DNA from: Sphaerolaimus hirsutus
Lineage: Eukaryota > Nematoda > Chromadorea > Monhysterida > Sphaerolaimidae
Direction of reading: 5' to 3'
NCBI GenBank assembly: GCA_964036195.1
Contig: OZ038458.1
Span: forward strand, 15,451,832 to 15,515,831
DNA length: 64,000 nucleotides
Shown: positions 12,659-60,668 of the stretch, piece after piece
Numbering within the stretch: position 1 is the stretch's first letter
Layout of the letters: every line of letters starts with the position of its first letter
The notes under the pieces: generated by a model
The model's database searches: none
Seen by the model: the letters and a program-made list of their open reading frames with translations, nothing else
Told to the model about the DNA's origin: nothing
Position numbers and translations under genes: made by a program

Positions 12659-12706
12659 GCAGCGGGCCGGGCTGATACGGCGCGGGTCCGCATTCGGGCG
12701 GACTCG

Positions 12707-15700
12707 ATGGCGCACTCGGTGCGCAGCAAAGGGCCGCCGCCTACCGACGCGGAAATGGCGGCGCAGTTGGCCGCCGAGGCGGCGGCCGAGAGAGCGGCGG
12801 CGGCGCAGGCCGCCCAGGTTGGTCGCTCTCCTGCCGAATTGCGAATTTTCGTGGACCAATGTTTGGATCCGACGGACCGAACCGTTACCCGATCGGACCT
12901 ATTGAATTTGGTGTGCAACCTATTGGCCCAGCGCCAAGGGGACTGGCCGACGTGCGCCAAGCCCACCCAGTTGAATGACGCGGCCCTCCGCCGCAAGGCG
13001 CTCGCCCTCATAAGCGCATATGAAAACTCAAGTGGGGGGGCGCCCTTTTTCGTGCCGGTCGATTCTGCGGACGAGGACGACTATGGGCCGCAGCGGCCTG
13101 CCTCGCCGGTTTTTCAGAGCCCGGCCGCCTCTCAGGTTGACGGCCTGGAGGGGGGTGGGGCTCACGCGCAAATCAACATGAGCCGCTCGCGGCACAGCAG
13201 CGGGGGCTCGATCGCCACAAATGCAACGAACTACGACCAGTTCACCGCAGCGATCAACGCGCGCGTCGCGCAGCAGGACGCGTTAATTAAGCAACTACAA
13301 CAGCAGCTCGTTCAGCAACAACTGGGGCCCTCGAAGGGCGCCCCATCGGCGGCGTCATCAGCAGCGGCAAGCGACCCGTGGTCGTGGACCAGGGAGGAGC
13401 GCATCGCCGCCGCGACCGAGGCGGGCCCCTCGCTGATACAGCAAATCGCGGCGTACGTCGATAAGTTTGTCACGTCGTCGTCCGATGGGTTGCAAAAGCT
13501 GGCACCGGCGTTGGCACTGATTTCCTCGCGCGATCGCATGGGCGTCGGCCAAGTCGCGGCCGCCGCCAGCAAACAATTAAACTTTGACGGCACCCCCACC
13601 TGCTCCGCGGGGCCTTTCAAGTTTTGGCTGCACACCACGTGCCTCCAGGCGCTGGGGGTCCCCAACACGCACCAGCAAATGTTCTGGAACTGCGTGTTTG
13701 CGCAATGTCTGAAGGGCGACGCCCACCGGCGCTACATCGCCACGCGCATCGATAAGCGGCACGACATTTTGTACATCCTCGACAAACTTGCCGACCTCTA
13801 CCGCCTCGATCAGCGCATCACATCCGTGACGGACTGGTATCACACCAAGGCCAAGCCCGGCGAGCCGATCGCTGAGCTGTACGCCCAGTTGTCCGCCAAC
13901 TTCCACCACATCAGCGACACGATGGCCGACGCCGAGCGCGAGAAAATGATCGGCGATAAGTTGTTTTCCGAAATCGTTTCGCTCGTCCCGTCGGCATGCT
14001 GGTACGTCTGGCATGAAAAGTGGAAACAGGGCGAGGTGTCGCTCGACATGGCGATTTTGAAAATGGACAACGCACGGCAAGAGTTGAAGGGCGGGAATCG
14101 TTTTGCGCGCTCGGACAATTTCCGCTCGGACAATTTTCGCTCGGACAATTCGGGGGGCCGTTTCCGCCAAAGTGGCCGCCAGAACCGCGGCAATTGGCAG
14201 GTCGAGTCCAAGGCACAGGGCACCTGTGAGGCGCCCCGGGGCGCCAACAGCACCACGCCCAGCGACATGCGCGCACCGAGGGGCGGTGCCAACTCGACCA
14301 CATGGTGCACATATTTTCTGCACCCCCGACCGCTTCAGCACGCAGCCTCGGATTGTTTCCTAAACCCGTCATCACCGGCGTACAAACCGGAGGTGGCGGA
14401 ACGCGTTCGAAACGCGCTCGCGCGCAAGGGTGTAAGCGAGGCCGATGCACGCCAAGCCATGATGCGCATGTGCCAGGAGCAGGGCATTCCCACGCAGCGC
14501 GCCGATTCTCGCCAGCAGGGCGGCCGCCCCAGTCGGGGCCGGCCAGCGCGCTCTACGCGAAAAAACCAGTCGGTCCAGAGCACGCAGCAGCACAGGGCGG
14601 AGCAACCTTTCAGCGGAGAGGACATGGACATGTGGTGTCCGCTCGCGTCCCGGGTCGATGGTGAGGCACCGAAATGCGCCAGCGCAACGGTGGCGCTCGA
14701 CCCAATTGCGTGGATTTTTTTCATGGGACAGCCCATGCGTGGACAAATTGACACGGGCTGTAACATCGGGTTGTTCATCGAAGACTCGTTGCTCGAGCAA
14801 GTGTGGGCCAAAGCAGGGGCCGACCCCCAAGCCGAAAGAGAAAAGTTTCGGCCGTACGACCAGGCGTGCGTGCGCACATCTGGACGCGAGATTGATGGCA
14901 ATCACCTGCGCATCTACGACATGGAAGTGTTCCACCAGGGGCCAGAGGGCCACTGGACATCTGCCGAAATCCCCGCCGTGGTGAAATTGATGGAATTTCT
15001 CCCGGCATCGGACCAACTCTTGATTGGGCGCGCCGCCATTTGGGGCCCATTGAAAGTTCTGCATGAAGCCAAACGGGAAATGGATCGGTTGGAAGAGCAC
15101 TTCCACCGTAACCCTCACGCGCTATCCACCATACGCGACTGTGGCTCGGCAGTGCGCCGAACCACAGACGTCCGCGTAGTGCATAAGGTCGTAGTGCCCG
15201 CGGGTGCGCGCGCCCAAATCCTAGTCGGGACCGACAAAGGCAGTGTCTTGCCATCAGAAAATGAAAATGGGCAAAGTCTGGCGTACGCACTGGATCCCAG
15301 CACCCGCGACGAGAATGGGGTACTGGTCGAATTTGAACCGGGCATCGCATGCAACGCCGCGTTTCATCCGCGCCGCGAGTGGCTCGATGACGCCAGTTTT
15401 TCGCTCTGTGTCGTGAATACTTCCGGCGAGGACAAGTTCCTCGCGGCCGACACTAAAGTGGCTGAGGTATTCACCGTCGAACGCGTGCTGGTCGAAGATA
15501 CGGTGGTTGAAAAGGCCGCGCACGGCACCATGCGGTTGCCCGCCCCGCCCGAGCCGATAAATCCCAGCAAAGTTGTGTTTCGCAGGCTTACCACCGAGCA
15601 GCAGCAGCAGGCGGAAGAAGTATGGGGGCGCCTCCCAGCCGACAGCCGCGACGCGCTTCCGACCGCGCTCCAGACCCGTTTCCGACAACTGCTCGATCAG

Positions 15701-18700
15701 AACATTGACATTTTCAGCCTAACTGAATACGACATAGGTGAGACTCAGATAACTGAGCACCGCATTTCGCTAGTTGAGGGGGCGGAGCCGGTAAAGTGTG
15801 CCGCTCGGTTTGAAACGCCCCCAAAACGCGCTTTTGTATGGCGCGCCGTCGACGAGATGCTCAAGAAAGGCTTGATCGTCCCCTCTTCATCGCCGTGGGC
15901 GTTCCCCTTGGTAATTGTCCCCAAGGGGAAGGACGACTATCGCCTGTGCCTCGACTTTCGGCGCTTGAACGAGCTGACGATCCGCGACGCATACCCACTG
16001 CCCCGGATAGCGGACATGTTTCAGCAGATGGACGGGCGGGCGGTGTTCTCGTGCATGGATGCCTCTTTCGGCTATTACAATGTCAAAATAGTCGATCCCG
16101 CCACTCGCGACATGGTCACGTTCGTCTGCAGCCGCGGCCAGTTCTCATACACGCGCATGCCCCTAGGTTTAAAAAACGCCGGGGCCAGTTTCCAGCGCCT
16201 CATGGACTGTGTGATCGACGGTTTGAACCGGGACGCCCAGCGGCCGTCATTTTTTGTTTACATTGACGATTGCCTGGTGGCAAGTGATGCGCCAGAGCAG
16301 CACCTGGACCATTTGACGCAATTTTTCGCCCGCTTGCGATGGGCCGGCATCCGACTAAAGCCAGAAAAGTGTTTTTTCTTTTGCGAAATGGTGAAATTTC
16401 TTGGCTTTGAATTGAGTTCCAAGGGCATCGCGCCTAAGCGCAGCAACGTGGCTGCGATCATCGACATGCCAGCGCCAACCACCAAGCAGGGCATTAAGAC
16501 ATTTTTGGGGAAAGCTGGCTACTTTAGCCAGCACATCCCAGCGTTCCATAAGTTGGCCGCTCCGCTGAACGAGATGGCCAAGGGCACTTACCGAGCGAAA
16601 GGGGCGGATCCTATTCCGTCCTACGACGCGTGGACCGGTGAGGCCCAAGACGCGTTCAACCAACTCAAGCACCGGTTGAGTTCGGCGCCAGTGTTGGCAC
16701 ACCCAGATCGAACAAAACCGTTTTACCTGTACACTGATGCGTGCGATTACGGCCTGGGGGCCGTTCTGATGCAGCAACCAACTGCAGATTCGGACCAGCT
16801 CCGCCCCGTTGCTTTCGTCTCGAAAAAACTGCCCACCACGCACAAGAACTGGTCGGTGGTAGAAAAGGAGGCTCTCGCCTGCACGTGGGCCCTCGACCGC
16901 TTAGGCGACTTCATCGATGGGCAGCAAGTGATCCTGCGCACCGACCACAAAGCGCTAGTGACAGCACTGTTAAAACCAGTGCGGGGAAAGATCGAAAGAT
17001 GGACCCAGCGGTGGGCCATGCGACTATCACTCAAAGATCTTTCAATCGAGTATTGCCCGGGAGAGCACAACGTGGTGGCTGATGCGCTCAGCCGATTTCC
17101 GATTGACGACATTGATCACGCATCTTTCCAACGCGCTAGCGAAATCATCAAGGTCCCGCTTGATAAACTCTGTCCACACATGGCCGCCAGCGCGCAGCAG
17201 GTGGACTGGGCACGTGAACAGCAAGCGGACCCGCAATTGCGCGAGCTGGCGGCGAAATTGCGCCAGGCTCAAGGCCGAGTCGGCCTGTTCTTCTTGCAGA
17301 AGGGAGTCGTTCGCGGCCAGGGCACTTGGGGCCCTGTGCCAGTTGCGCCCGCCCACATGCGGCTTTCGTTGCTTCAAAATGCGCATGCCGGCCTGACAGG
17401 CACTCATGGGGGGCTAGAACGCACGCTCCAGCGGCTCAACAAACTCTGCACATGGCCGCGCATTCGAGCGGACATCGACGAATTTATAAAAAAGTGTCAT
17501 ATTTGCAAAATTACCAAGGACGCGCAGCGCAACTGCGTTAGTCCGCTGTTCCCAGTCGCGCCTGGCACCAGGCCATGGTTGAAAATCGCGGTCGATACGA
17601 CACCCATGCCCGAATTTCGCGGGTATCGCCACTTGTTAGTGGCGGTCGACTACTTGACGCGCGCAATAGTACTGGCACCGCTGCGCCAACTAACTGGCCA
17701 GCAAGTGGTCAACGCACTCGAGCGCAACATCATTTTCCATTTTGGCCCGCCTGCCGAGCTGATTAGCGACAACGGGACAGAGTTCGCAAATAAGAATGTA
17801 GAAGCACTGGCGGAAAAATGGGGTTTTTCGCTTCGCAAAACGACGCCGTATCACTCGCAAGCAAATGGGCTTGCCGAGCGGGCCATCCGCAGCGCGGAAC
17901 AGGTTATCCGCCAGTGGTCCGCGCACAACGCGGGCTGCAAGGACTGGCCGTCAGCCCTGCCCGAATTGACACTGCGAATGAACGTCGCCTACAACCGCGA
18001 CGTAGCGCACGCGCCGTTCGAGCTTCTCTTTGGCTATCTTCCGTCGCTGCTGGGGGGGGTGGGCCCGGCCGAGCCGGAAAAAGCTGTGCCTGACCCGCTC
18101 AGCGACCCCCCTAGTAGCAACACTCGACTAAAAGCCACCATGAAATCGCTCATGACGCGGATTCCGCAGCTTGCACAGCGGCCCGGCGCCCTGGGCAAGC
18201 TGTGGAAAAAAGCCGCAATGCACTTGAAAAACGCACAAGCACGATACAAGTCCACCTACGACAAAAAACAGCGCCACCCTGTAAGCGTAGGCGATCAAGT
18301 ATACGTGAAAAAGCGCTGGGGAATGTCGGTAGAAAAGAAAATACAGCCACTTTACGCGGGACCGTATGATGTAGTAGGAGTAGATCAATCAACTGCCCTC
18401 CTTGACATCTCAGGCGATATCCGACGCATCCCCATTAACCAGCTGAATATGGCAAACCGCCAGAGCGGTCGCGACGCGGCGCGACAAGTTTACGTGCCGC
18501 CCCCCCAAGACGACGCCGCCAAGGCGTCGTACCTGGCTGACATGCTGCGCCAAGTCAACGTGGCGCTGGACCGCGCCGAGCGTCTGCGCTTGGGCGGCTT
18601 CGCCGATCCGCAAGTTGAAGACGATAGTTCTCGCCTCATACACCGTATCCAAAAAGCCATCGTCGATGCTAATGTTAGCACCAACGAGTCACTGGTCAAC

Positions 18701-20620
18701 CCTCTGGTGACCCACGTTTGCACAAACGCCACTCCCCCGCAGCCTCAGCACCCCGCCAGCCAGCCGACCCCTCCCGTCGAGGGGCAGCAGCAGCAGCACG
18801 CGGCCGACGTCGAGCGTCAGCCGCGCCGCGAGGGCCGACTTCCGGAGCGCGACCGAGGCAGCCGCGGGCGAGTGCGCAGTCGCAGCCGCAGCCCGGTGCG
18901 TCCGCCGAGCAGCGAGCAGCCGAGCGGCAAGGTGGAGGAGAGGCGCCGCAGCGCCCCTGACGGCACGGCGCCGGGCGGCACCACGGCCAGCAGCGACCCG
19001 GCCGGCGGCAAGCGGCGCCACAGCACCGACGCGGCGGACACGGCGGCGGCCAAGCGCGGCCGCACCAGCCAGCAGACGGCGCGCAAGTCGACCGGCGGCA
19101 CGGCCACCGGCGGCGGCACCAGCGGCCACGGCACCAACCCTAAAGGTGGGCTATTTAGCCATGTTTTTCGGACCACCGAGGTCCAGTGTCCACCGCGCCC
19201 CGCCAACGCAGACACGGCAGCGAAGGCAGCGGCGGCGGCGGAGAAGGCCGCGGCAGCGGCGGCCGAGAAGGCGGCCGCGGCGGAAAAGGCTGCCGCAGCG
19301 GCGAAAGCAGCGGCGGCGTCGAAGGCAGCAGCGGCGTCGAAGGCAGCGGCGGCAGCGAAGGCAGCGGCGGCAGCGAAGGCAGCGGCGGCAGAGAAGGCCG
19401 CGCGTGCGGCTGAGGGCCGCAAGGAAGGCCGCGGCGCGACCGCGGCAGCGACAGGGAAGGGCGGGAAAGGTACGCGCCCTTTGCACACTTTGCACACGCG
19501 TCACGCGATTCCCCGCACCAACTCTGGCACCACCGCAGGGTCGAATTCCACCGCGTTGAAGCCACCCGTGCCGCCGCCTACTGCACCCGCGAGTGTGCCG
19601 CCCGTCGCCCCCGAGGACCGCCACGCCATTCTCAAGCACGCCGTCGACAGCCCCCCGGAGGGTAAGCTAGCTTTGCGCGCGCTGGAAAAGCGTTTATCTA
19701 CTTCTGACGATCGAATTGACCGCATTAACGGGCGTCTACTCGCAGCGCGCTGGGACATGGCAGCGCTGCGCGAGCACAACCGCCGACTTTCTAGCGACAT
19801 CGAGAAGCTGAAAGTCAATCCCCCCGGCGCCCTCTCTGTCCTGCGCTACAGCATCAACCGGGAAGGCGAGCTGTCTGCCACGGTGGAGCGGCTGGAGCGC
19901 CAGCTGCGCCAGCAGGACGCGGAGTTGACACGCGTCAACGCCGCGTTGGACGAGAAGCGAGCCGAGCTGCGGAAGGCGCGCGCCCAGCTCAAGGACGCCA
20001 CTTCTACCAGCATGGTGCAGGCCGAACAGTGCTTGGACGCCATCCGACTGGCCGATGGCATCACTCTTGAATGGCTCGACGAGAAGCGACTCGTGGCCGA
20101 GCTGATGGACGAGCCCGCGCCGGCCGACGACGCCGCCCCGCGCTGCTTGGCCGCCCGCGCCGCGCTCGGTGCGGCCGGCGGCGCCGACAGCCAGCTGTAC
20201 GACCGCACGTTTGGCCTGATCAAGCCACGCCCACCTGCAGCCCGCCACACACCCGCGGCAGGTGCTTTTTCTGACAGCGCTTCTGTCTTGGACATTTCGT
20301 TGGGGAGCTCACGCAAGGGCTACGCAGGCGGGGCCGCTGATGGTGCGCTCAGCGACGGGCCGCCAGACGCTGGCGGCCGCGGCGGCGGCCTGCCCCTTGG
20401 ACGCGGCGCCGACGACTCGGTCGAGTACATTCGCACGCCGACTTTGTCACCCGCGGGCCCGAGCCCGCCAGCTAGCCCGGTTCCGACGACGTCTGCCAGC
20501 AGCTCGACCCCCGCGCCCCCGGCCGTAGCCCCCGGGCCGCCAGGTGCACCCCTGAAGTTTAAGAAGCTAGAGAAGGGAAAAAAGGGGGGCAATTCCAAGC
20601 GCCCACTCGTTCGGGAGTAG
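12707..20620 (+). CDS. Gag-Pol polyprotein of the gypsy element, single frame
   Basis: About 2637 residues. The ATG at 12707 is chosen because the frame upstream has no earlier ATG. Residues 1-~600 are Gag: a capsid-like part, then an RSDNFRSDNFRSDN repeat and a Cys/His knuckle-like motif. Aspartic protease DTG is at about residue 682. Reverse transcriptase has YIDD at about 1185-1188. RNase H follows, with an active-site Asp near 1344. Integrase has an HHCC finger (about 1559-1602) and catalytic D1630, D1688 and E1724 with DD35E spacing, then a GPY-type module. About 730 further residues follow: an Arg/Ser-rich stretch, Ala/Lys/Glu repeats (19215-19420) and a probable coiled coil (19680-20010). 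No frameshift or stop separates Gag and Pol, so protein ratios must be set some other way. Confidence 0.95.
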   Translation: MAHSVRSKGPPPTDAEMAAQLAAEAAAERAAAAQAAQVGRSPAELRIFVDQCLDPTDRTVTRSDLLNLVCNLLAQRQGDWPTCAKPTQLNDAALRRKALALISAYENSSGGAPFFVPVDSADEDDYGPQRPASPVFQSPAASQVDGLEGGGAHAQINMSRSRHSSGGSIATNATNYDQFTAAINARVAQQDALIKQLQQQLVQQQLGPSKGAPSAASSAAASDPWSWTREERIAAATEAGPSLIQQIAAYVDKFVTSSSDGLQKLAPALALISSRDRMGVGQVAAAASKQLNFDGTPTCSAGPFKFWLHTTCLQALGVPNTHQQMFWNCVFAQCLKGDAHRRYIATRIDKRHDILYILDKLADLYRLDQRITSVTDWYHTKAKPGEPIAELYAQLSANFHHISDTMADAEREKMIGDKLFSEIVSLVPSACWYVWHEKWKQGEVSLDMAILKMDNARQELKGGNRFARSDNFRSDNFRSDNSGGRFRQSGRQNRGNWQVESKAQGTCEAPRGANSTTPSDMRAPRGGANSTTWCTYFLHPRPLQHAASDCFLNPSSPAYKPEVAERVRNALARKGVSEADARQAMMRMCQEQGIPTQRADSRQQGGRPSRGRPARSTRKNQSVQSTQQHRAEQPFSGEDMDMWCPLASRVDGEAPKCASATVALDPIAWIFFMGQPMRGQIDTGCNIGLFIEDSLLEQVWAKAGADPQAEREKFRPYDQACVRTSGREIDGNHLRIYDMEVFHQGPEGHWTSAEIPAVVKLMEFLPASDQLLIGRAAIWGPLKVLHEAKREMDRLEEHFHRNPHALSTIRDCGSAVRRTTDVRVVHKVVVPAGARAQILVGTDKGSVLPSENENGQSLAYALDPSTRDENGVLVEFEPGIACNAAFHPRREWLDDASFSLCVVNTSGEDKFLAADTKVAEVFTVERVLVEDTVVEKAAHGTMRLPAPPEPINPSKVVFRRLTTEQQQQAEEVWGRLPADSRDALPTALQTRFRQLLDQNIDIFSLTEYDIGETQITEHRISLVEGAEPVKCAARFETPPKRAFVWRAVDEMLKKGLIVPSSSPWAFPLVIVPKGKDDYRLCLDFRRLNELTIRDAYPLPRIADMFQQMDGRAVFSCMDASFGYYNVKIVDPATRDMVTFVCSRGQFSYTRMPLGLKNAGASFQRLMDCVIDGLNRDAQRPSFFVYIDDCLVASDAPEQHLDHLTQFFARLRWAGIRLKPEKCFFFCEMVKFLGFELSSKGIAPKRSNVAAIIDMPAPTTKQGIKTFLGKAGYFSQHIPAFHKLAAPLNEMAKGTYRAKGADPIPSYDAWTGEAQDAFNQLKHRLSSAPVLAHPDRTKPFYLYTDACDYGLGAVLMQQPTADSDQLRPVAFVSKKLPTTHKNWSVVEKEALACTWALDRLGDFIDGQQVILRTDHKALVTALLKPVRGKIERWTQRWAMRLSLKDLSIEYCPGEHNVVADALSRFPIDDIDHASFQRASEIIKVPLDKLCPHMAASAQQVDWAREQQADPQLRELAAKLRQAQGRVGLFFLQKGVVRGQGTWGPVPVAPAHMRLSLLQNAHAGLTGTHGGLERTLQRLNKLCTWPRIRADIDEFIKKCHICKITKDAQRNCVSPLFPVAPGTRPWLKIAVDTTPMPEFRGYRHLLVAVDYLTRAIVLAPLRQLTGQQVVNALERNIIFHFGPPAELISDNGTEFANKNVEALAEKWGFSLRKTTPYHSQANGLAERAIRSAEQVIRQWSAHNAGCKDWPSALPELTLRMNVAYNRDVAHAPFELLFGYLPSLLGGVGPAEPEKAVPDPLSDPPSSNTRLKATMKSLMTRIPQLAQRPGALGKLWKKAAMHLKNAQARYKSTYDKKQRHPVSVGDQVYVKKRWGMSVEKKIQPLYAGPYDVVGVDQSTALLDISGDIRRIPINQLNMANRQSGRDAARQVYVPPPQDDAAKASYLADMLRQVNVALDRAERLRLGGFADPQVEDDSSRLIHRIQKAIVDANVSTNESLVNPLVTHVCTNATPPQPQHPASQPTPPVEGQQQQHAADVERQPRREGRLPERDRGSRGRVRSRSRSPVRPPSSEQPSGKVEERRRSAPDGTAPGGTTASSDPAGGKRRHSTDAADTAAAKRGRTSQQTARKSTGGTATGGGTSGHGTNPKGGLFSHVFRTTEVQCPPRPANADTAAKAAAAAEKAAAAAAEKAAAAEKAAAAAKAAAASKAAAASKAAAAAKAAAAAKAAAAEKAARAAEGRKEGRGATAAATGKGGKGTRPLHTLHTRHAIPRTNSGTTAGSNSTALKPPVPPPTAPASVPPVAPEDRHAILKHAVDSPPEGKLALRALEKRLSTSDDRIDRINGRLLAARWDMAALREHNRRLSSDIEKLKVNPPGALSVLRYSINREGELSATVERLERQLRQQDAELTRVNAALDEKRAELRKARAQLKDATSTSMVQAEQCLDAIRLADGITLEWLDEKRLVAELMDEPAPADDAAPRCLAARAALGAAGGADSQLYDRTFGLIKPRPPAARHTPAAGAFSDSASVLDISLGSSRKGYAGGAADGALSDGPPDAGGRGGGLPLGRGADDSVEYIRTPTLSPAGPSPPASPVPTTSASSSTPAPPAVAPGPPGAPLKFKKLEKGKKGGNSKRPLVRE

Positions 20621-20768: not shown

Positions 20769-21208
20769 TGTTGCGGCGGCGCACCGCTTAAACGGTGCGC
20801 GTCGCAGTTATCCCCCCTGCACCGCACCTAATTAAGTCATTTTCGTGTGTGTTCCGCAGGCGCGGTGCGTGCGCTGCGGCCGTAATCCGGGAGCGTTCCC
20901 GCGGGCGGCGCGTTTATAACGCGCCCGCATCTCTCTGTCTTTTATCAGTGCGAGCCGTTTTATCTACCTATTTTTCCCGTTTCACCCGCCTACTTGGGTG
21001 AGTTCCCGTTTTCGTGTTTACTCGCCGTGGCTGTATTCACCTACCTACTGGCATTCCGTGTGAACATGAACTTTTGTTGAGTTGACTCGGGGACTTGTTT
21101 TGGAACTTGTGAAGTTCGCTACCCAGCGCGCCCACTTGATGTGGGCCATTCTGTGAAACTTTTTGGTGCTCGGTTTTGAAACTTTAACGTGGCAGCGGCC
21201 ACGCAACA
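20769..21208 (+). repeat. 3' LTR
   Basis: Same 440 bp as the 5' LTR, offset by 8880; line-by-line reading shows no difference. Confidence 0.93.
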
Positions 21209-21212
21209 CCAG

Positions 21213-22052
21213 AAAAACGTATTTCAGGAATTTCAAATCGCAATTTCTGTCGCTAAAAAAGAAACCTTTAGACAGCGTTCACACTGTGAAACAGTGACGA
21301 CAAAAAATGCGATTTTTCAGCCATTGTTGTGTGATACATATGAAATATTTTTCATGTGTGAGGCCTCAATCGATCATGACTTGATCAGCCCCACTGCCTA
21401 AGACAAACATAAAATTATATATATTGCGTGTTCATGCACACTAGATCACACTTTTTTCCTGTTGTCGGAGGTAGTCGCTGATTTATTGTCGCCATCCCCT
21501 TTAACGAGGCCGCCGACAACGCCCCTTGAACAAATACAGCGACAGCCTCCGACAACATAAAAAAGTGTGATAAAGTTCCTAAAAAATACTGAGTAATCAC
21601 TAAAAAATGACATATGTTATGTCTTCCAGGGTAAAAATCGCTCTCATATGTAAAAAAGTAGCAGCGTTCTCCTTTTCCATGAAAAATACCCACTTTCACA
21701 TATTCAATGAAGAAAAGTATTCGTCTTTACATTTTACAAGGGAAAACGTACTCGAATTTTCCTGGAAAAAAGTATTTCACCCACATGTACTCATGCATGA
21801 GTATGGGTGAAAAAAGTGTTTGACATTTTCTGTACTCAGGGGCGATGATAAAATACTTTACATATACATATACTTTGAAAAAGTCCAGTAATTTTAACAA
21901 CTCTGCACTAAATAGGGGAAAGCACAACGAGCGGGAAATAATTACCAGATGTGACGAGTATGTGTGTAGTGGCGAGGGTGACAATCAAATCAAGTGTGGA
22001 GCATGCTTGTGGCCTCTGCGCCGGACGACCGCACGGCGAGCTGGCGGCCAGA
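21213..22052. other. AT-rich spacer with repeat fragments
   Basis: Around 21445-21560 an inverted pair (CACTTTTTTCCTGTTGTCGGAGG / CCTCCGACAACATAAAAAAGTG, partly) marks a short TIR element. Around 21840-21905 the tail of a CAGAGTTGTTAAAA-type element is recognisable. The interval is also the 3' flank of the zinc-finger gene on the minus strand. Confidence 0.45.
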
Positions 22053-24505: not shown

Positions 24506-27500
24506 ATGGTCGTGCGAGCGCTGGCGTCGGATGCCCAATGGCCCGCAGAGTTAGATGCAGCTAGTTCGCAGTTACTGGTCGTCGATTTTTTCGCCACATG
24601 GTCTGTCAGTGTTTTGGTTTTTAAAAATATGTTTTTAAGCAAATTTTTTTGTGCAGGTGTGGACCGTGCCGCACTATCGCGCCGTTCGTGGAGCAGCTGT
24701 CCAATCGGTATCCCGATGTTGTCTTCCTTAAAGTCGATGTGGACAAGTGCCCAAGTGTGTTTTCACGTGTACTAGCGTAGAGATTTTAGTTAGCTACAAC
24801 ACACGTTCCCCAGACAGTTCTAATTTTTTTCGAATCTGTACACGTAGATTCGGTGGGAAAATATCACTTATCACATAATGTGTATAAGTGTATATAAGCT
24901 GGCATTACCTAAATACTACTAGGAACGGAAAGCCGTTTAGTGACGTAGGGTTCAAATGGGGTCTCTGTAGACACCCAGAAAGTGATTTTTCTGGCTAACC
25001 AGGCGGCCTCATCAAATGCAAATAAAAGTGTTATTTTCAAATAAAAAATGCATAAAATTCTCCATCCGTGCTGTGTTTATTTCAACGGACCCTCTACGCT
25101 GCTCCAGACACTGCCCAATCGGCCGGCGTGTCAGCCATGCCAACGTTCGTGTTCTACGTGTCGCGTGCCAAAGTGGACACTTTGCGCGGCGCCGACCAGG
25201 TGCCAATCCCAGACCCCCTATGCTTTGTAAAATGTCAAATGTCATGCAAAGTGTCAAAAGTCATGGAAAATGCCCTGCAAAATGGCAACCTAGTTTCCAT
25301 TTTGCAGGGCATTTTCCATGACTTTTAACACTTTGCATGACAGTTGACATTTTACAGGGCATTTTACAGAGTCTGGGACTGCCCCAAGGCTGCCCTCGAG
25401 GCAAAAGTTGCTGACTGGGCCACTAAGTTGGGCGCCGGCGCGGGGCTGCAAGCTGCTGGACAAGCGTGTCCCGTATCTGGTCAGGTGCGGCGCTGCGCTG
25501 CTCGCGCAGTTTTGAATCATTTTTTTGATGGGTGAGAAAGATGGACCTTTTCCGTCTCGCAGATTGACCTCACCGGGTTTATTATGAAAGAGTCTGTGGA
25601 GTGTCTGAATGAGAGCGACTCGTTCACGTTGAAACACATGTTGGACGGAGTTTGCGCGCTGAAATCAGATTGCGACGAACAGGTGAGTTTTATTACGTGG
25701 TAGCCGGCTGTTTTTGGCTATTTATTTGTGTGATACACCTATTTTGAACTATATTTCCCCTTATTTTTACATATCGAATTTCTCCTCTTGCCGCCTTCTA
25801 TACTTCGAAAAAGCCTGAACTAAATCTGATTTATAAATAAAGCAATAAGAAAAGCGCGGATTTTTCCATCCCAGTCCCTAGTAAAACCCCCTCCCTATTT
25901 ACGAAACTGCGCAGCTGCTGATCAGTCTGCCGCTGCGGCAGCCGGTTCGTCTGCATTCGATAGCGATCCGCGGCGCTGGCGATGCCGACGCCGGAGCCGG
26001 TGCCGCCGGACCGCGCACTGTCAAGATATTCTGCAACACGCTGCAGATGCTCGACTTTGATGCTGCGGAAGGTGCCGAGCCGCAGCAGACAGTAGAGTGA
26101 GCTTCATTCTTGTGCATAAAGTGATAATTAGTGATGTAAAGGCACCGGGGCACCGGTGCCCCGGTGCTGGGCACCGAAGGGCACCAGCACCGGTGCTGGT
26201 GCGGTGCCATTGCAATCTTCAGGGGTGCCATGCCGGTGCCGGTGCCATTTTTTTCAGAATAGCACCGGTGCCGGTGCGGTGCGGTGCCATTTTTTTGCCG
26301 GTGCCAAAGGTGCTAGCACCAGGGCCAAAGTAAAAAACACCGGGAAAGGCACCGACCAAGGCTTCATGTGCTGTGCAATTTTGTCCACAGTATGTGCTTA
26401 TTCATATTTCAAAAAACAGCGATATATTTACCATACCGTTTTTGCCTATTTGTAAAACTCCCATCAAATAAATATACCTACTGTGAAATCCATTATACCC
26501 GATACATGATCTGATGAGCGAATCTAAAATTTTGTTGAATTTTAAATCATTTTTATATTTTATATTTATCTTACTTGTTTGTTCAAAATTTGATGTCAGT
26601 TAATGACAGAGATAGTTCCATTCTCTGTACAGCAACGACTCCGATCAGTAGACAATAGTGGCTATGGACATTGCAGTGAATTAAATATTTTATCATTCAT
26701 TTGTAATCATTGTAATTGCTTCATAAAACTGATTGCCACATCATTCTGATCATTTTAAGCGCTCAACCATCAAAATCGGTTGAAAATTCTACGAAATATG
26801 CACTTCCAAAGGTGATATTTACTTCAGAAATTCCAGCCCGGTGCGGTGGCTTTCGGTGCTAGCACCGGCAACCCGCCGGTGCCCTTCGGTGCCGGTGCCA
26901 TTTTTTCAAAAAGGCACCGGTGCCGGTGCGGTGCGGTGCCATTTTCTGGCCGGTGCCCCAGGGTGCCAGGTAGGGTTCAAACGGGATTGACTTTTCGGGA
27001 TCGGGATCGGGATCGGGATTCACTTTTTGAGATTTCGGGATCGGGATCGGGATCGGGATCCCGTTTGAACCCTAGTGCTAGGTGCCCTTTTCATGCGTTG
27101 GCAAAGGTGCCGGTGCGGTGCGGTGCGGTGCCATTTTTCCCGGTGCCTTTAACATCACTAGTGATAATGTGCCTCTGGTCATGTAAACCCTGCCGACATG
27201 TAGATCCAAAAAACACGCTGCCGCCCGGCGCTAATCCCCAGCCCGTTCGTTATGTACGCACCCCCATACATGACGAGCAGGCCTGCATCCTTAGGTGCCT
27301 TGCATTCCATACTGTCGTTGTTTGATTTTTGGGCCCACACACGCTAGTTGACATCGACACCAAATGTCAACTGGTGCCGATACCGATTCAAAGCTGGCTA
27401 ACGAGTGGGCGAACGACGTTCAAACGCAATTTTTGGATTAGGAACGGAACCAATTGACATTTGGTGTCGATGTCAACTAGCTTGTGTGGAGCCACTCGTC

Positions 27501-31167: not shown

Positions 31168-31324
31168 GTGCCCAGTTGGCAGCCCCGCACCCTGTAAAGT
31201 GTCAAGTCTAGTGTCAAATGTCATGCAAAATTGCAACAAAAAAGAAGATTTTATTACTGAACTTTGACAGCCTGCATGACATGGCTTGGCTTAACTACTT
31301 TACAGGGGTCGGGACTACCCCCAG
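31168..31324 (+). mobile_element. Introner-family copy in the TXNL1 3' flank
   Basis: It begins GTGCCCAGTTGGCAGCCCC and ends GGTCGGGACTACCCCCAG. The interior has CCTGTAAAGTGTCAAG, TGTCAAATGTCATGCAAAA and their inverse partners. It carries the same GT...AG borders and orientation as the intron copy, 55 bp after the TXNL1 stop, so it could be spliced as a 3' UTR intron. Confidence 0.65.
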
Positions 31325-43412: not shown

Positions 43413-43548
43413 GTACCACTCCCGGACCCTGTAAAATGCCGTCAAATGTCATGCAAAGTGTCAAAAGTTTGCCATTTTACATGACCTTTGACACTTTATA
43501 TGACTTTTGACACTTTAGATGACATTGTACAGACTGAGTGAGGCCTAG
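43413..43548 (+). mobile_element. Introner-family copy upstream of the phosphatase exons
   Basis: CAG|GTACCACTCCCGGACCC starts it and GAGTGAGGCCTAG ends it. The interior has CCTGTAAAATGCC, TGTCAAATGTCATGCAAAG and CATGACCTTTGACACTTT. GT...AG borders lie on the plus strand, antisense to the phosphatase gene. Confidence 0.6.
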
Positions 43549-43699
43549 TACCCATCTGAACCCATTACACATCTTGACCCGCCACCCATCTAGTTCTACC
43601 CATTACCCGTCTGGACCCATGACACAAAACACCTTAGATGAGTAATATAATGTAAATATTTTAAATTAAATTTAAATAAATTTATTATTAAATTATATT

Positions 43700-43975
43700 A
43701 TTTTTGTTATAACCCCCTGTCAGATGAATGATGGAAAACCCCCCTCGATTAATTCCCCTTTAAGCAAATGATAAATTTATTGGGTAATATTTGAAAAATA
43801 ACAAGGAACAAAAATAGCATGTTATGTTCTTAATAAAGCATATTTTATGAGTTGATAGAAACATACTTGAAAATTTTAATGAAATAATAATTCCCCCATT
43901 GAATAATTTCCACCTTGAATAGGCCCTCCCTCAAAAAAGTCCTTGGGAAATTATTCGAGTAAATATGGTATACAA
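43700..43975. repeat. Eroded TACCGTATTTCC-type element
   Basis: CCCCCTCGATTAATTCCCC and GAAATTATTCGAGTAAATATGGTA are recognisable remains of the family. Confidence 0.5.
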
Positions 43976-44102
43976 TTATGTTAAATATGGTATTACTTTA
44001 CATTTATTTTTATGTTGAATCTATTTGATATTTGTTTAATATTTAATCAATAAATAATCTTAACAATATGTTAAAATAAATAAATTAATGTCAAAATTAG
44101 AA

Positions 44103-44275
44103 TGTAATGTGTAATGGGTTTTTATGGGTAGAATTACATGGGTGCTGGGTGCAGATGTGTAATGGGTCTAAGTGGGTAGAATTAGATGGGTGCCAGGTCT
44201 AGATGTGTAATGGGTCTAAATGGGTAGATATAGATGGATGCCGGGTCTAGATGTGTAATGGGTTTAGATGTGTAC
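44103..44275 (+). repeat. Degenerate tandem repeat GATGTGTAATGGGTCTAAATGG
   Basis: About four units of roughly 45 bp combine ATGTGTAATGGGT with GGGTAGAATTAGATGGGTGC. Inverted relatives (ACCCATTACACATCT) occur at 43550-43625, so 43550-44275 may be one element. Confidence 0.55.
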
Positions 44276-44340
44276 CGGCAGAAGCTCATTTTAAAGGGCA
44301 TTTTACAGTGTCTGGGAGTGTGTATCCCCTGTTAGTATAC

Positions 44341-45238: not shown

Positions 45239-48200
45239 ATGGCTTCCTTGGCTGTGGTTTGCATGGACTATTCCCCTGTGCGAGATGACGAAATCAGGGT
45301 GATTAAAGGACAGAAGGTACTACTTAAAAAATTTTCATCACCTATTAACCACCATATTTCCTTGATTAAAAAGTCGCTGTGAAAAACTAACTGCCCAGTC
45401 ACTTTGAGATGAACGGAATGAGGAGCTCGTCAACTACTTTTGACGTAGATCGAAAATTATTCGTTTTGGTAAACTTTTGGTTCATAAAATTTCGCAAATT
45501 TTGCCCGCAAACCAAATGGTGTGTAGTTCCACAATTTTTATCTCTGCTTTTATCTTCTCTGTCCCATTCCTACTTGCCGAATAGCATTTTGGTGCTAATC
45601 ACAGGTGATAACAGGTGCGAATGACTCCAAACGCTCTCGCTGTTTTGTCCACACTGTGGATCAAAATACTGGCCTGCCCACCGCTGGCTATGTCCCGTGG
45701 TGTTTGCTGGACATGGAAATTTCCAAGAACATTTTTGAGATACAAACGTGTAGTAAGGATGGACAAATGGGGTTTTTTAAATGGCTCAATGATATTGATG
45801 ATCGGACCAGGTAATTTGGATTTGGTGGGTGTCCGTCACAATCAAATACCGTATATCCTTGAATAAAACCCCTGTTGAAAAAACCCGCTTGAATAGCTCC
45901 CCATGTTGGCTACGTGAAGCAAAAATCACCCCCTCCCTTGAATAACTCCCCGCTCTTGTTATTTGATATGTCTATCCACATCGAGTATTTGAATGATTTG
46001 GATGCTGATAAACACAAATTTTAGCATGAACACCTTGTTTTTTGTTGTTGGTCTGTTAAATACATTGTTGATGGAATGCATTCATACAAAAAATAAAGTG
46101 CAAGTACTGAGGAAATAATAACTACCCCCTTGAATGACACCCCCCTTGAATAACTCCCCCTGCAAAACCTCTGACGAAATAATAACATCCTTGGGGTCTT
46201 ATTCGAGGATATACAGCAGGTAAATCTCATTGTTTGTCCCAATCTGTCAGAGCATGGCGCAACTTCTATTCAAAGTCATTTGGGAGCTCTTGCATTGATG
46301 ACAATGGTTTGGCATTGCTGCAGCCCCCATCATTATTTGTGAAATCAAATGGCGACCAAAGCACGAGTTTATCCAGCAAGTGTTTGTTTGGAAAAGTCAC
46401 AGAGAATGCACGCTATGTGTTACACAACTTTAAAGTGCGTCATTAGTGGGAGGATTAAGAAATTATTTAGCAGAAAATATTTATTGCCAAATTCTTAATA
46501 CCGTATATCCTTGAATAAGTCCTCCCCCTTGAATAACACCCCCCTTGAATAACCACACTGTGCCTGATGAGGAAAAATAACTCCACCCCTCGAATAACTC
46601 CCCCCCCCTCCTGAATAACTCCCCCCTCTGGGTGGTTTGATATGTGTATCCTCAATATGTATTCAAATGATTTGGATGCCAATGAACATGAAATTTTGGC
46701 ATGGAAATCTTATTGTTGTTGTTGTTGAACTGTTAAATACCTCGATCATATGAGTTTACGGAATGTATTCTGAAAAAAGTGCAACTTCTGAGGAAAAAAT
46801 AACTCCTCCCCTTAAATAACATCCCCCCTCGAATAACTCCCCCTCCAAAACGTCTGACGAAATAATAACTCCCCTGGGGTCTTATTGAAGGATATACGGT
46901 ACCTATATATTTACGTTTTACCGTTGTGCAGCCTCAACGAAAAGAAGACATGGAAAACGACCTTCAAATGATTGAGCCCAGATTCAAAACTGAACCATCT
47001 GATGTGGTTGATGTTTCCCCGGGTTCATCGGTACGTCACGGCACTCAGGGGGAACTTCCAGACCCTGTAAAGTGCCCTGTAACATCTCAATTGTCATGAA
47101 AAGTTTCAAACGTTATGTAAAATACCCTAAAACTTCGTTTGTCATTTTACAGGGTATTTTACATGACTTTTGACATTTTACAGGGTATGGGAGTGGCACC
47201 TTGGCAATTCATTTCGTTGCGCCTAATTCTTAACAGTGTTTAAGGTCAAGTTCAAATGCGAACTCATGCCTGGATGCAGCGCCTCGATCATGTGGGGTGG
47301 ACCAATTTTTCATAAAGTGGAGAACAATGGGGCTGATGGCTCGGACACAAATGTAGACATTCACGTCAGTTTTCTCGATATGGTAGATGAAATAAGTAGG
47401 TAAATATGACCCATCGAATAAATATCATTCGTTTTTAGACATCGCCCGATGGAATGTCATCGACGATGACTATTCACCGCATACAGAGCTGCCACAGTGG
47501 CACCTACTCCGTGTCAGCCTTCAACTTAGCGGGCAACTGCAAAGCTCTCGCTTCACTTATCGTTGTGCACCACCCTCAAAGTGTCAGGTAACTGCAAAAG
47601 AAGCTTGTTTACTGGGGGAAAACCATCATTCTTTTTACAGGAGCCTCAAATGTCTAAGGGTGACCGGCAGTTCAGTTCAGCTTAGCTGGGACACCCCATT
47701 TGGGGTGCCCGCTCAATGCGATTTGCGCTATTCTGTGTTATTTCGCACTGCAACAATGGATGGATATGAAGTGGCCGCGGATGGAATCGATCAAAGCGAC
47801 ACGGTTATCGACGAATTGACGCCGGGTAATATCTACTGGTTCACTGTGGTCGCGTACAATCGAGCGGGGATCTCGGAACGGTGTTCTCCATGTGGTCCAA
47901 TTCACGTTCGATGTGAGCTTCGGGCTAGGCGCTGGTACAAAATTGTAAAAAATAAAGGTCTTTTTCAGTCGAAAGTCGCCCATGGCGTGTACTACTTTGG
48001 CGTATTCATGTAAATGAATATTTACGTAATTATTACCTACCGTATTTGTTTGAATTATAAACTCCTCGTATAATTCTCTCTCTTGAATAATTCCCCCCAG
48101 TGAGAGTGAGACAAAATAGGTCCCCCCACGAATACGTTTCCCTTTAGACATGTGATAAAATTGTTGGGTATAAATTGAAGGAAAATGTCATGTTAATGAA

Positions 48201-51128: not shown

Positions 51129-51313
51129 TAGTGATGGAATGGCGCCATGGCGCTGGCGCCATTTAAGGGCGCCAAAGTGTGTTGTGCCATGGCACCACTT
51201 TTTGTCGCGCAGTTTTTACGCAACAAAAATTTGTTGTGCAGGAGACAACGCTAGTGATGAAATGCCGCAATAGCCTTAAATGGTGCCAGCGCCATGACGC
51301 CATTCCATCACTA
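51129..51313. mobile_element. Small GGCGCC hAT-like element
   Basis: TAGTGATGGAATGGCGCC and GACGCCATTCCATCACTA are inverted ends. No 8-bp duplication is visible; flanking TGTCGCGCAG repeats obscure the borders. Confidence 0.65.
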
Positions 51314-51421
51314 CCGGCGCAACAAACTTGTGTCGCGCAAAAACTGTGTTCGAAATCGCCGTGAGCCGGATAATTGCGATTGAAGCTTCAAGGTGAACGT
51401 TCTCTGCAGGTGATGCCTGTC

Positions 51422-51788
51422 TAGTGATGGAAAAGCGCCATGGCGCTGGCGCCTGGCGCTAGCGCGAACGGAAAAAGCGCCATGGCGCTTTTGGCGCTTG
51501 GCGATATTTTGCTGTGGCGCCATTGGCGCTTGGCGCTGGGGTTCGGAAAAGCCCCATGGCGCTTGTGGCGCTTTTGGCTCTTGGCGCTATTATTGCCTTG
51601 CTCCAGCAACGAAATGCCTGGAGCTGGCGCTTCGCGCTAGCGCCAAAGCAAAAGCGCCATGGAGCTTCTGGTGCTTGGCGCCATTTTGCTGTCGCGCCAT
51701 TAGCGCTTGGCGCTGTGGTCGGAAAAGCCCCATGGCGCTTTTGGCGCTTGGCGCCAAAGTCCTGTCGCTTTTTGCTTTACTATCACTA
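51422..51788. mobile_element. hAT-like GGCGCC element
   Basis: TAGTGATGGAAAAGCGCC and GCTTTACTATCACTA-like ends; flanks TGCCTGTC/TGCTTATC match 6 of 8. The interior is AAGCGCCATGGCGCTTTTGG units. Confidence 0.7.
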
Positions 51789-52750
51789 TGCTTATCAGAT
51801 AGATCGGCATGAGCCAGATTACATAACGCGAGTAACGCGAGGACCTACATTTTGACATATAAGAGAGACATTTTGACTTTAAAAATGGATGCCTTGTGTA
51901 AATACACGATCACTAGCTGATTTCGTCAATCTGCTGGTTTTATTCAGCTGGTCGAACAAGACCCCATTATATGGTCGTGAGTTCTCCTGTCGGGCAATTG
52001 CAAATGTGTGAAATAACAATGGGCGTCTTCTGATGTCATCGTGATAAGAAGTTTGGGTGGGCAAACTTTTCAGTTGTTGTTGTTTTTTGTATTGACTGGA
52101 TTGTGTGTATTGTGGGCGTTGTTTTCGGAAAGGAAAAACATTACTTTTATTAGCCAAACATTAAAATCTATCTTGAACTTGTCGCGAAAAGAAATTTGTT
52201 TGGTCTTGTTTTGTGTGTCGTTTTCGTCCGAGGTGACATACATTTCGGTAACTTATATGACAACCATCACACCCACACCGCCTACAACAATGTATTGAAT
52301 GTTACGCGGTGCTCTATTAGGCCACAAATATAGCTTTATTCCAGGAATGAATTTATAACAAGCTTATTATCGGCTCTCAATTATTTTTGTGTTTGCGCAG
52401 GAACATCATCACATTAAATGCAATTTCAAACAAGGAACAATAATTTTGGCATTTTTCACGTCATATATTTATATACCTATAAGTATTCTGTAAAATATGA
52501 ACCTAAATATGCCTACGCAAATAAATAATTATTAGCCTACATGGTCATTATGACACGGTCGCCTCATTTGTAAACGCATATCACAATGGCGTTTGTTTGT
52601 TTACCTGGTTCAACATAGGCGGTGCTAAATTTGCACAACGATTTGTCTAGCTGGCCCGTCAAATGTCCTGATAAGAGTACTAAAAGTGACCACGCAACAA
52701 CTACGTAATAGGTCGCTCTGCAAAAACACACATGAGTCAGTGATGTTCAG
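51789..52750. other. Intergenic DNA, no gene seen
   Basis: AT-rich interval between the kinase gene and the mucin-like gene without recognised repeats; its last part is the promoter of the mucin-like gene. Confidence 0.5.
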
Positions 52751-57270: not shown

Positions 57271-57526
57271 GTGCCAGTTCCGCAAATTGAGAAGTGAGAA
57301 ATAAAATGGCAAATGCGAAGTGAATTGGGAAGAAAATTGGCAAAAGTGAAGTGAAATGGCAAGTAAATTGGCAAAAGCGAGTTAAAATAAATAAAGTAAT
57401 TTCCCTTCGCTTTTGCCAATTTCCTTCTCAATTCACATCTTACTTCTCATTTCACATCGCATTTGCCATTTTACTTCTCGCAACTTCTCTTTACTTTTTT
57501 CTGCAATTTGCGGAACTGGCCCCAAG
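57271..57526 (+). mobile_element. Introner-like TIR element, second subfamily
   Basis: CAG|GTGCCAGTTCCGCAAATT starts it and AATTTGCGGAACTGGCCCC|AAG ends it: inverted ends with GT...AG borders. The interior repeats AAATGGCAAATGCGAAGTG and AATTGGCAAAAGCGA. Same end design as 25200-25388 but different filling. Confidence 0.6.
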
Positions 57527-57596: not shown

Positions 57597-60500
57597 TCAT
57601 CTGTTCGAACGTGTCTTTTTGTCGCCGCTGTTTGTCCCATTCTGTGATACGTTGGCAACGTTGGGTTCCATCTCTGCTTGCGCGTAGCCGCTTCGCATGT
57701 GATATATGATGTAGCTGATAAGTTTTCCCCAGGCTAAAACGACTTTCTCCTTGCCGTCGTCTGAACCTGTGTGTGGCATAACTCATCATCTCAGTGTGAT
57801 ACAACATGTGCGATTCAAGTACGGCAAACCGACCATTATCCCATTCCAGTGCGCACTCGATAATAGCCTCCTCAAAAATGTCCCAGTACTCTGGCTTAAA
57901 GCCGTGATTCGCCGCGATGCGTCTGTGCCTCCTGCCCAACTCCTGGGGGCAGTCCCAGACCCTGTAAAATACCCTGCAAACTGTCAAATGACATGAAAAG
58001 TTTCCAAAGTTATGTAACCGAATTGCCATTTTGCATGGCATTTTACTGACTTTTTACACTTTGCATGACATTGACATTTAACAGGGCATTTTACAGTATC
58101 TGGGATTGGCACCTGGCACAGGTCCTTCAACTCGGGCAGATTGTTCGCCTTGTTCACCGCCAGCTCCAACATGTTCATGAATATGCGCAGGTGCTTGAAG
58201 AACGCCTTTGGGTAGAGCAGCATCTCGTCGCTGCCGCTGGCACCCGGCGGCGGCGCGGGAATGTTGAATATGGCGCGCACATTCGGCGCCTTGGTGAAGA
58301 TCTTGCGGAATATCCGCTGGCCCGAATTCTCAAAGTCCGTTTTCTCCGAGTTCGCCCTGTGAGACGTGTGAAGTGTTCACCAAGAATCCCAACGATTTTT
58401 CCAATGACGGATTATTCTTACAGGCGCCAGTCACTTTTTTGTTACGTTGGTCCTTGCACAAAGACTGGTGCTTTACATACCGTATTACCTCGAAATACCC
58501 CCATGGGGGTTTATTATTTCACCAGCAAAATTTGAGGGGGGGGGGGGGGTAATTAAAGGGGGGTTTATTCGAGGGGGGGGGGGGTTTATTATTGTTTATT
58601 GTTGTGTATTATTACTATTATTTATTGTGTATTATTACCCAAAATAGGTAATAAATGTGTCCAAACAGGATGTATTTGGACATAAAAACGTAGATAGCTA
58701 CACAAACTACTCTATGTGTAGCTGCAATGCAAATTAACAGTAATATACATCATGTACATTGCGTACATGACGTATTTATTATGTACATGACGTACATCAT
58801 TCCGAAGGGGGGGTATTTCGAGGGGGGGGGTTATTATTTACCCAGCCCATTTTGAGGGGGGTTAATTCGAGGGGGGGTTAATTCAAGGGGGGATAATTCG
58901 AGGTAATACGATAGTTGTTAAAAAGTATTTAATTTATTCGATACGTTTAGATTTCCTCCCGAACAAATACCGGTACTCACATACTCACGTACTTTTTGAA
59001 AGTACGCGAGTACAGAAAACGTATTTCAGATTTGCGCGACATATTTTGAGGGCAGTCCGAGACGTTGTATTGAAAGCTATACGCTGCCCAACTCAATTCC
59101 AGTTTGTATACCTTGACTGTCAAAAAGACACATCGTGTCCAACGTTTTCTGTGGACAGAAATAATTTACTAACGTTTACTCATGAGTAGTGATGTGAAAG
59201 CGCCATGGCGCTGGCGCCTGGCGCTAGCGCCAAAGCAAAAAGCGCCATGGCGCTTTTGGCGCTCGGCGCTAAAATGCTGTGGCGCCATTGGCGCTTGGCG
59301 CCGTGTTTCCGAAAAGCGCCATGGCGCTTTTGGCGCTTGGCGCTACTTTCCAGCGGCGCCATTGGCGCTTGGCGCTACCATTTTTTAAAGCGCCAAAAAA
59401 GCGCCAGAGAGTGATAATTGCGCCGCGGTGTTCATGTGCTTTATTGCATATTTTCAGCAATTTTTGGCCATGTATGTACTTATTTTACATAGGTATTTTA
59501 CTCAGATATGTAATTTAGCTATTTTTACCCTGTTAGCTTACAGTTTGCATGTTAAATCTTGAAATATCCAATAGATTGAAACTCTGCAAGCCCCAACCCC
59601 CTGACAATTTTTCAGCTTCTACCACAACAGGGAGGCAATTTGTTATCTATTTGAACCAGTCTTAGTTATACCCTTGTGTGTTGATGTTGTGGTGTTGATG
59701 AGGGGTATAACTATCTGAATCAACACTGTATGGAGACATGGATCAATAATAAGTTGTTGTTTTTTCTACCAAAAATCCATTTATTTATGTTGATTTGTTA
59801 CATATAAAACCTTTCATAGAACATTGTTCACTTTCAACATATCACAGGTTATCATTATATTCTAACATACAGAAATTAAAATTCTGATGCAAAAAAGTGC
59901 AACAATATCAACAAAATAAAATTTACCATGCAACTTGACATGACCTGGTAAACCCGGTGACCTGAGAAGTACAAATGAAAAAAACACAGGTATAATTCTC
60001 ACTGTTGAGCAAGAAAACTTCTTGATTTCCATTATTTGACCATTTTTGTGTTTTTGGAGGCAATACGAGTTGTTGAAAGTGAAGAAAATAGTACTTTGTC
60101 TCACCTGTGTCATTAAAGGCAATATCATTTTGGCGCTAGCGCCATTGGCGCTTGGCGGCATGGCCCCCTGGCGCCTCTGGCGCTTGGCGCTAAGGTCCAG
60201 AAAAGCGCCATGGCGCTTTTGGCGCTTGGCGCCATTTTGCTGTGGCGCCATTGGCGCTTGGCGCTAGTTCCGGAAAAGCGCCATGGCGCTTTATGGCGCT
60301 TTTGGCGCTTGGCGCCAAAAGTCTGGCGCTTTTTACATCACTACTCATGAGGAAAAGTAAAAAAAATGATTTTACTTGCGTTTACGTTTACTTTGAAAAA
60401 AGTTCAGTACTTTTAACAACTCTGGTGCTTTCATAGAACAGTTTGTCGTTTGGGGTCATTGGCGCCGTTTACGAGCGCTGCACTGGCGCCCAAGGTGTTT

Positions 60501-60668
60501 GCTGGCACCATAGCTAGAACAGAGTGGGTCTGAATGGGCCAACCAAGTGCGCTCTATGATCTCCTTGTCCTTGTCGCTCAAGTGGAAGTCGGACCGCGTA
60601 ACGGCGTCGCGCAGCTCGTTGCGCTTGTCGAGTCGCAGCGAAACGCTGTGCGAATGTTCGCCGCCCAT
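57597..60668 (-). CDS. Globin with N-myristoylation motif
   Basis: Four exons on the minus strand join in phase: 60668-60544, 58356-58113, 57942-57834 and 57766-57597; 215 residues. The frame begins MGGEHSHS, a good N-myristoylation signal (Gly2, Ser6), so it is likely membrane-attached; myristoylated globins are known in nematodes. The A helix has LSDKDKEIIERTW. The E helix region KAFFKHLRIF puts His at the distal position. ELGRRH near residue 129 supplies the proximal His F8. YWDIFEEAIIECALEW is the G helix and AWGKLISYIIYHM the H helix. Heme binding is therefore expected; the role could be oxygen or redox sensing (inference). Intron 2 is wholly an introner-like element just before the proximal His; intron 3 is 67 bp. 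Intron 1 (2.2 kb) holds two mobile elements. The ATG at 60668 is chosen because no other ATG precedes it in frame. Confidence 0.92.
57943..58112 (-). mobile_element. Introner-like TIR element forming all of globin intron 2
   Basis: On the minus strand the intron starts GTGCCAATCCCAGATACTG and ends GTCTGGGACTGCCCCCAG. The first 14 bases are the same as in TXNL1 intron 3, and the last 18 differ by one base. Inside are TGTCATGCAAAGTG and AAAATGCCATGCAAAATGGC, again shared. Exon borders are CAG|GT and CAG|GAG, phase 0. Confidence 0.87.
58478..58913. mobile_element. TACCGTATTACCTCG TIR element in globin intron 1
   Basis: TACCGTATTACCTCGAAATA pairs with AATTCGAGGTAATACGATA. G-runs with TTTATT, plus a unique centre with repeated TGTACATGACGTA words. 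Confidence 0.78.
59187..60343. mobile_element. hAT-like GGCGCC element in globin intron 1
   Basis: TAGTGATGTGAAAGCGCC and GGCGCTTTTTACATCACTA are the ends. CTCATGAG is a perfect 8-bp duplication (59179-59186, 60344-60351). GGCGCC arrays occupy 59200-59410 and 60120-60335; the centre (59420-60110) is unique AT-rich DNA without an intact gene. Confidence 0.9.

Follow-up and report, generated by a model that had tools for sequence, protein, structure and literature searches.

Introners that are DNA transposons with terminal inverted repeats (TIRs) and target-site duplications (TSDs) have been established (Gozashti et al. 2022, PMC9860276). The legend of Fig. 2C of that article includes, among the types described, introners that carry the 5' splice site and co-opt the 3' splice site from the TSD. 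Among animals and land plants, introners were reported there in two groups, both of them animals; the main text names copepods and does not contain the word "nematode". The accessible text on the introner elements of Amoebophrya describes inverted-repeat hairpins with direct repeats of 3-5 nt at the exon borders and with very diverse, non-GT-AG ends (PMC7789003). TG is known as an end of human U2 introns, where, in the accessible text of PMC2374985, such ends are rare alternatives near an AG, with no constitutive example found. In the available accounts of euglenid nonconventional introns, a stable RNA structure joins intron ends without conserved borders. A 2019 paper on Fritillaria reportedly dealt with non-canonical introns. 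Tunicates, Fritillaria included, are described as animals with many non-GT-AG introns, for which introner transposons with weak sites are given as a possible source (PMC13326754, accessible part).

The DNA analysed here (the window, 64,000 nt; C14:15451832-15515831) comes from a 348-Mb assembly of 762 contigs. Like the introners of Gozashti et al., the family found in it is a non-autonomous DNA element whose copies make up entire introns of genes unrelated to one another, with the 5' splice site carried and the 3' splice site taken from the TSD. As far as that article could be compared, the family differs in being a near-full palindrome whose polarity lies in four end bases, in its CWG target, and in having CTG insertions in exons about as frequently as CAG insertions. 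It shares the hairpin, the short direct repeats and the non-GT-AG ends with the Amoebophrya elements but has a single GT donor together with either CAG or CTG as its end. Compared with the human TG ends, TG would be the sole end and mass-produced, if the CTG copies are read so. Unlike the euglenid introns, the family seemingly needs a GT end, and unlike the tunicate situation, the five ordinary introns examined in the TXNL1 and globin genes of the window all had an AG end. A literature search that covered few subscription journals and no bioRxiv preprints, and the texts in part, found no introners recognised in a nematode and no introner family with CTG ends.

Globin intron 2 and TXNL1 intron 3

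The globin gene lies on the minus strand, and its four exons (exon 1, 60544..60668; exon 2, 58113..58356; exon 3, 57834..57942; exon 4, 57597..57766) were spliced into a complete frame of 215 aa. A PF00042 match, to which exon 2 contributes, was obtained with the 109 aa of this protein that were scanned. Exon 3 is co-linear with P0001 and starts five codons ahead of the proximal His (F8). Intron 2 (57943..58112, minus strand, as correctly placed in an earlier note) is 170 b long and consists of one copy of the element plus the second TSD copy, with no other base. The element (57946..58112, 167 nt) reads GTGCCAAT...GACTGCCCC, and its GT end is the 5' splice site. The left target-site CAG (58113..58115) is the last codon (Gln) of exon 2; the right CAG (57943..57945) provides the AG of the 3' splice site. 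Intron 2 is an inverted repeat across almost its full length (MFE -70.8, z -8.5), which the earlier note had missed.

TXNL1 intron 3 (25200..25388, plus strand) is a second whole-intron copy, with the element at 25200-25385 and flanks of CAG (25197-25199) and AAG (25386-25388). Both introns are GT...AG, the globin intron ending in CAG and the TXNL1 intron in AAG. The likeness of their ends described earlier was confirmed, the first 14 bases being identical and 17 of the last 18 matching. That description proved too modest: global alignment gave 74.6% identity, and the likeness filled the whole introns. The alignment scored 90.5, against a mean of -21.2 (sd 5.9) and at most 1.0 for 500 dinucleotide-shuffled versions of the TXNL1 intron. 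The best named match of the TXNL1 protein was from Plectus (53% identity), and its C-terminus was read by eye as KVGEVGH. A nematode is thus the probable host, but in a TXNL1 tree of 30 rows, where Plectus was the nearest row, the window TXNL1 fell outside a supported clade of seven named nematodes.

Globin intron 2 is very probably an introner, that is, a non-autonomous palindromic MITE inserted at a CAG codon, which it duplicated. The element would have transposed, by means of a putative transposase, into the globin coding sequence at this codon. The 5' splice site (GTGCCA) would then come from the element's own end and the 3' AG from the duplicated CAG, so that a CAG target entered GT end first would read CAG|GTGCCA...CCCC-CAG|. 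The spliceosome would take out the element and one CAG, leaving the reading frame intact.

With the proximal His taken as F8, the position of globin intron 2 is F3.0. The earlier note had argued for a recent gain from a position outside the classic globin intron sites. This argument does not hold: the accessible part of PMC2576238 lists F3.0 introns in other nematode globins, namely the orthologues of C. elegans F19H6.2 in Brugia and Pristionchus, and describes nematode globin intron positions as tremendously variable. An intron of unrelated sequence conserved at this codon across nematode globins had been named in the earlier note as the finding that would contradict it; as regards position, these listings come near to it. 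The search for globin relatives gave one 101-aa match with a partial protein and none with the fuller protein. If F3.0 is common to other nematode globins, parallel gain at a proto-splice site would be implied, or the rebuilding of an older intron by the element. The latter is unlikely because every base of the old intron outside the element must have vanished.

It is improbable that the element entered a pre-existing F3.0 intron whose old sequence was later lost, with no intron gained in globin. The F3.0 listings speak for such an event, as does a family copy at 47050..47199 (plus strand; flanks CAG and CTT), which by eye seems nested in an older intron of an FN3-domain gene. Against it, both window introns lack any base beyond the element and its flanking triplet, and the same exactness was found in the alcohol dehydrogenase, GWT1, arginyl-tRNA synthetase (RARS), AMPK gamma and cyclin Y genes. 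The case for intron gain in globin thus comes from the exact coincidence of element and intron, not from the position. The gain need not have been recent; the copies of the family are a median of 85% identical to one another.

With ≤4 mismatches allowed, the inner repeat turned up at 13 sites in the window, whereas ten block-shuffled windows had 0-2 such sites each. Those in the window include two copies that are not introns themselves, the one at 47050..47199 and one at 31177..31321 (plus strand), which lies about 65 b beyond the TXNL1 stop codon and has CAG on both sides. This non-coding copy, the locus-specific target duplication and the TIRs all argue against the idea that the introns spread from an RNA copy, whether by reverse splicing or by gene conversion. 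Although whole-intron likeness in unrelated genes would fit that route too, we consider it extremely improbable compared with DNA transposition. At 43414..44324 (plus strand), the left and right ends of a family copy are separated by a minisatellite with a ACCCATCTGA-like unit, possibly as one interrupted element.

Several other repeats were seen in the window. Downstream of the globin stop codon, 57271-57522 holds a second foldback element with an unrelated interior, similar ends (GTGCCAGTTCCGCAAATTG, GGGCCAGTTCCGCAAATTG) and TTG/CTG flanks, perhaps of another family mobilised by the same transposase. Nested inverted repeats at 7296-8720 (up to 248 nt, 88% complementary, short centre) form a much larger foldback. 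At 12629-20620, an open frame of 2663 codons resembles, by eye, a retroelement polyprotein with reverse transcriptase- and integrase-like stretches; the same peptide occurs near 12165-12300 and 21045-21278, possibly as repeated ends. Long arrays of the words GCGCCA/TGGCGC at 59173-59420, 5692-5995, 9326-9698 and 51311-51812 appeared by eye to have open frames on both strands and would therefore inflate ORF-based gene prediction.

Copy number, anatomy and target sites

A search of the assembly with the globin intron gave 2,527 candidates, and all 40 places that were scored matched. The GT-end pattern occurred at 9,748 places (4,909 + 4,839) of the 348-Mb assembly at ≤2 mismatches, and its exact CTG-flanked form at 510 + 528 places; the reversed control gave 0 in both cases. 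The first 100 listed exact places reached 28.5 Mb of contig C1 for CAG-flanked and 29.8 Mb for CTG-flanked copies, which indicates that the two are about equally common on this contig. With its TIRs, a 3-bp CWG TSD, and a short length and high copy number, the family has the features of a MITE. It is also introner-like in that introns of unrelated genes resemble one another right up to the splice sites at both ends. The mobile source that the earlier note had proposed for intron sequence shared by unrelated genes is therefore borne out by thousands of copies, a locus-specific 3-bp TSD and exact insertions in other conserved genes. A viral contig had a 19-base match to the inverted repeat and lacked the partner end, and the match was taken as chance.

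The consensus, built from 105 copies of 150-200 b (median pairwise identity 0.85), was 187 nt long. It folds as an unbroken hairpin save for four bases at each end, 5' GTGC and 3' CCCC; a full palindrome would require GGGG at the 5' end, not GTGC. Individual copies fold less perfectly than the consensus (mean -0.56 kcal/mol per base, 128 copies).

With ends fixed by the repeat and unadjusted, 137 copies had CAG or CTG as the left triplet; their left/right pairs were CAG/CAG in 46, CTG/CTG in 36, CTG/CAG in 13 and CAG/CTG in 3, with another right triplet in 39. The left-right association was strong (Fisher p 3e-12 on the 98 CWG pairs), and the right triplet was unlike the left in 55 of the 137 copies at these fixed ends. 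In the globin-query set, which was not selected by flank, 21 of 36 copies had identical flanking triplets.

Interrupted genes and orientation of coding copies

Several copies interrupt conserved genes. For class III alcohol dehydrogenase (L003), the joined fragment was gapless to the human protein over 75 residues across the junction. Pfam matches spanned the joined junction in an M14 carboxypeptidase (L006) and in GWT1 (L020), and an LRR match crossed that of L030. AMPK gamma (L090, CTG/CTG) was gapless to 4rer, and RARS (L109, CTG/CTG) to human 4zaj, across the junction. So was cyclin Y, in which the left CTG is the codon kept, giving Leu as in the human protein. Further CTG/CTG copies were found in GWT1 (L067), in a CHGN-type chondroitin transferase (L087) and in an MFS protein (L008), whose Pfam match was under its cut-off. 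Pfam scans of other joined fragments gave no match in 5 of 10 (the alcohol dehydrogenase piece included) and in 5 of 10. In these conserved genes, removing exactly the element and one triplet restores the protein.

Two of the loci, L006 and L015 (C14, about 10 kb apart), have near-identical flanks and the same introner at the same carboxypeptidase site, which indicates a duplication after insertion. L086 and L087 (contig C1, 5420034 and 5421078) lie about 1 kb apart in what appears to be one chondroitin transferase gene; one element is CTG/CAG and one CTG/CTG, so both 3' ends are comparable in one transcript.

After deletion of the element and one triplet, 140 copies were scored with a codon model for which confirmed exons (903 codons) served as the training set; a copy was called coding if it scored >10, was positive on both sides and contained no stop. 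These copies do not sample the genome at random, 104 of them having been chosen by the exact GT-end pattern on contig C1; 38 of the 40 scored globin-matching places were fetched. Dropped before the counts were L011 and L021 (the same places as L012 and L009), L015 (the near-copy of L006), L058 (masked), and L028, L047, L076, L112, L123 and L133 (right end not found). L070, whose GT end the script had overlooked, was reoriented by hand. In an earlier run of 85 copies, L015, L024, L027, L029, L033, L041, L058, L081, L092 and L095 had been left out by hand; eight of these ten loci were restored for the run of 140.

On the GT-first strand, 18 of 74 CAG-left and 16 of 63 CTG-left copies were coding, compared with 2 and 0 on the opposite strand. 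Among the 137 CAG- or CTG-left copies, 34 were thus coding across the GT-first junction, as putative introns well above the at least four expected of an introner family, and 2 in the opposite orientation (binomial 1e-8). One more GT-first coding copy, L017, has TTG on the left. The 35 coding copies were 142-351 b in size. When random junctions were taken in the same loci of the 85-copy run, 16 of 850 were coding on one strand and 7 of 850 on the other.

Because six of the training exons lie next to tested copies, the analysis was repeated with 523 codons from window exons only, the globin copy omitted. This gave 14 of 73 CAG-left and 15 of 63 CTG-left copies coding GT-first, against 2 and 0 on the opposite strand (29 vs 2 of 136), and 11 GT-first against 0 opposite in the globin-query set (n = 35). 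CTG-left coding copies were GT-first in 16:0 with the main model and 15:0 with the window-only model. The opposite-strand calls were unstable, being L142 and L151 in the main model and L115 and L151 in the window-only model; for L151, a C2-like domain was moreover recognised by eye on the GT-first strand.

Since the consensus is otherwise palindromic, the end tetranucleotides are the likely cause of the orientation bias, and promoter, poly(A), size or structure could hardly account for it. A strand-linked insertion preference could formally also produce it. A bias explicable by the end bases points to the GT donor, and hence to RNA splicing rather than DNA excision. In ciliates, IESs are removed by precise DNA excision of the element and one repeat. 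Programmed excision of this kind would fit the precise loss of the element and one 3-bp repeat, but excision of a near-palindrome should ignore gene orientation, which the observed 34:2 does not; we regard it as very improbable.

Copies at CTG targets

In 13 of the 16 CTG-left coding copies the right triplet was also CTG, so the AG expected at the target duplication of a coding copy was absent there; the other 3 had right CAG and would be ordinary GT-AG introns. Right CAG was no more frequent in coding (3/16) than in other CTG-left copies (11/47), which gives no sign of pressure to gain an AG. CWG right triplets were found in 34 of 35 coding copies and 81 of 105 others, a comparison that is biased because the coding test needs a correctly placed end. 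The prevalence of phase 0 among the CTG copies (15/16) seemed unusual at first, but CTG is mostly a whole codon in any case (59/81 in confirmed exons).

The simplest reading, and on balance the one we lean towards, is that copies inserted at CTG are taken out at the corresponding point and so yield putative GT-TG introns. It is a serious though less favoured possibility that they are not cut at TG but use other AG sites, are removed by a structure-driven process as in euglenid nonconventional introns, or stay unremoved as broken alleles. Alternative sites were sought in 14 right-CTG copies, namely L017, L056 (score 9.6) and all but one of the 13 coding CTG/CTG copies. Frame-keeping GT-AG choices lay within 25 b in 7 of the 14, leaving 7 without a near alternative, and any one pair of sites served at most 2 of the 14. 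When the search was widened (donors -45 to +60, acceptors -60 to +63), alternatives appeared in 13 of 14, with a partly different list of copies; the smallest for L008 adds 45 bases.

In AMPK gamma, an AG in the right arm keeps the frame with 6 extra residues. RARS has a single near alternative with 3 extra residues, but its use would alter YDTSDLAA, which is identical to human. The whole assembly gave only two RARS matches (residues 1-43 and 38-89), which flank the element, and no second copy was found in it, which speaks against the rival reading. Removal without TG is also favoured by the RNA hairpin, which brings both ends of the element together, and by the lack of constitutive TG acceptors among the human genes covered in the accessible text of PMC2374985. 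Against it stands the GT-first bias of 16:0 (15:0 in the repeat); neither disuse nor excision driven by the hairpin alone would predict it.

With splicing at TG, the palindromic family would mass-produce introns with both CAG and CTG 3' ends, and from the genomic sequence a constitutive GT-TG class, tolerated even in the essential RARS gene, seems somewhat probable. The mode of intron gain is an old question, and very few introners have been recorded in animals. The family is a natural experiment in which survival in exons shows the end bases that splicing needs, namely GT at the start and seemingly only C-W-G at the end. If the GT-TG reading is true, the 3' splice site would be recognised as YWG instead of AG, perhaps with the aid of the hairpin, which juxtaposes both ends, and the corresponding change in the spliceosome (U2AF1, U2AF2, SF1, U5/U6) would be directly searchable. 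If RNA confirms the CTG class, the AG rule of U2 introns would be broken wholesale in one animal.
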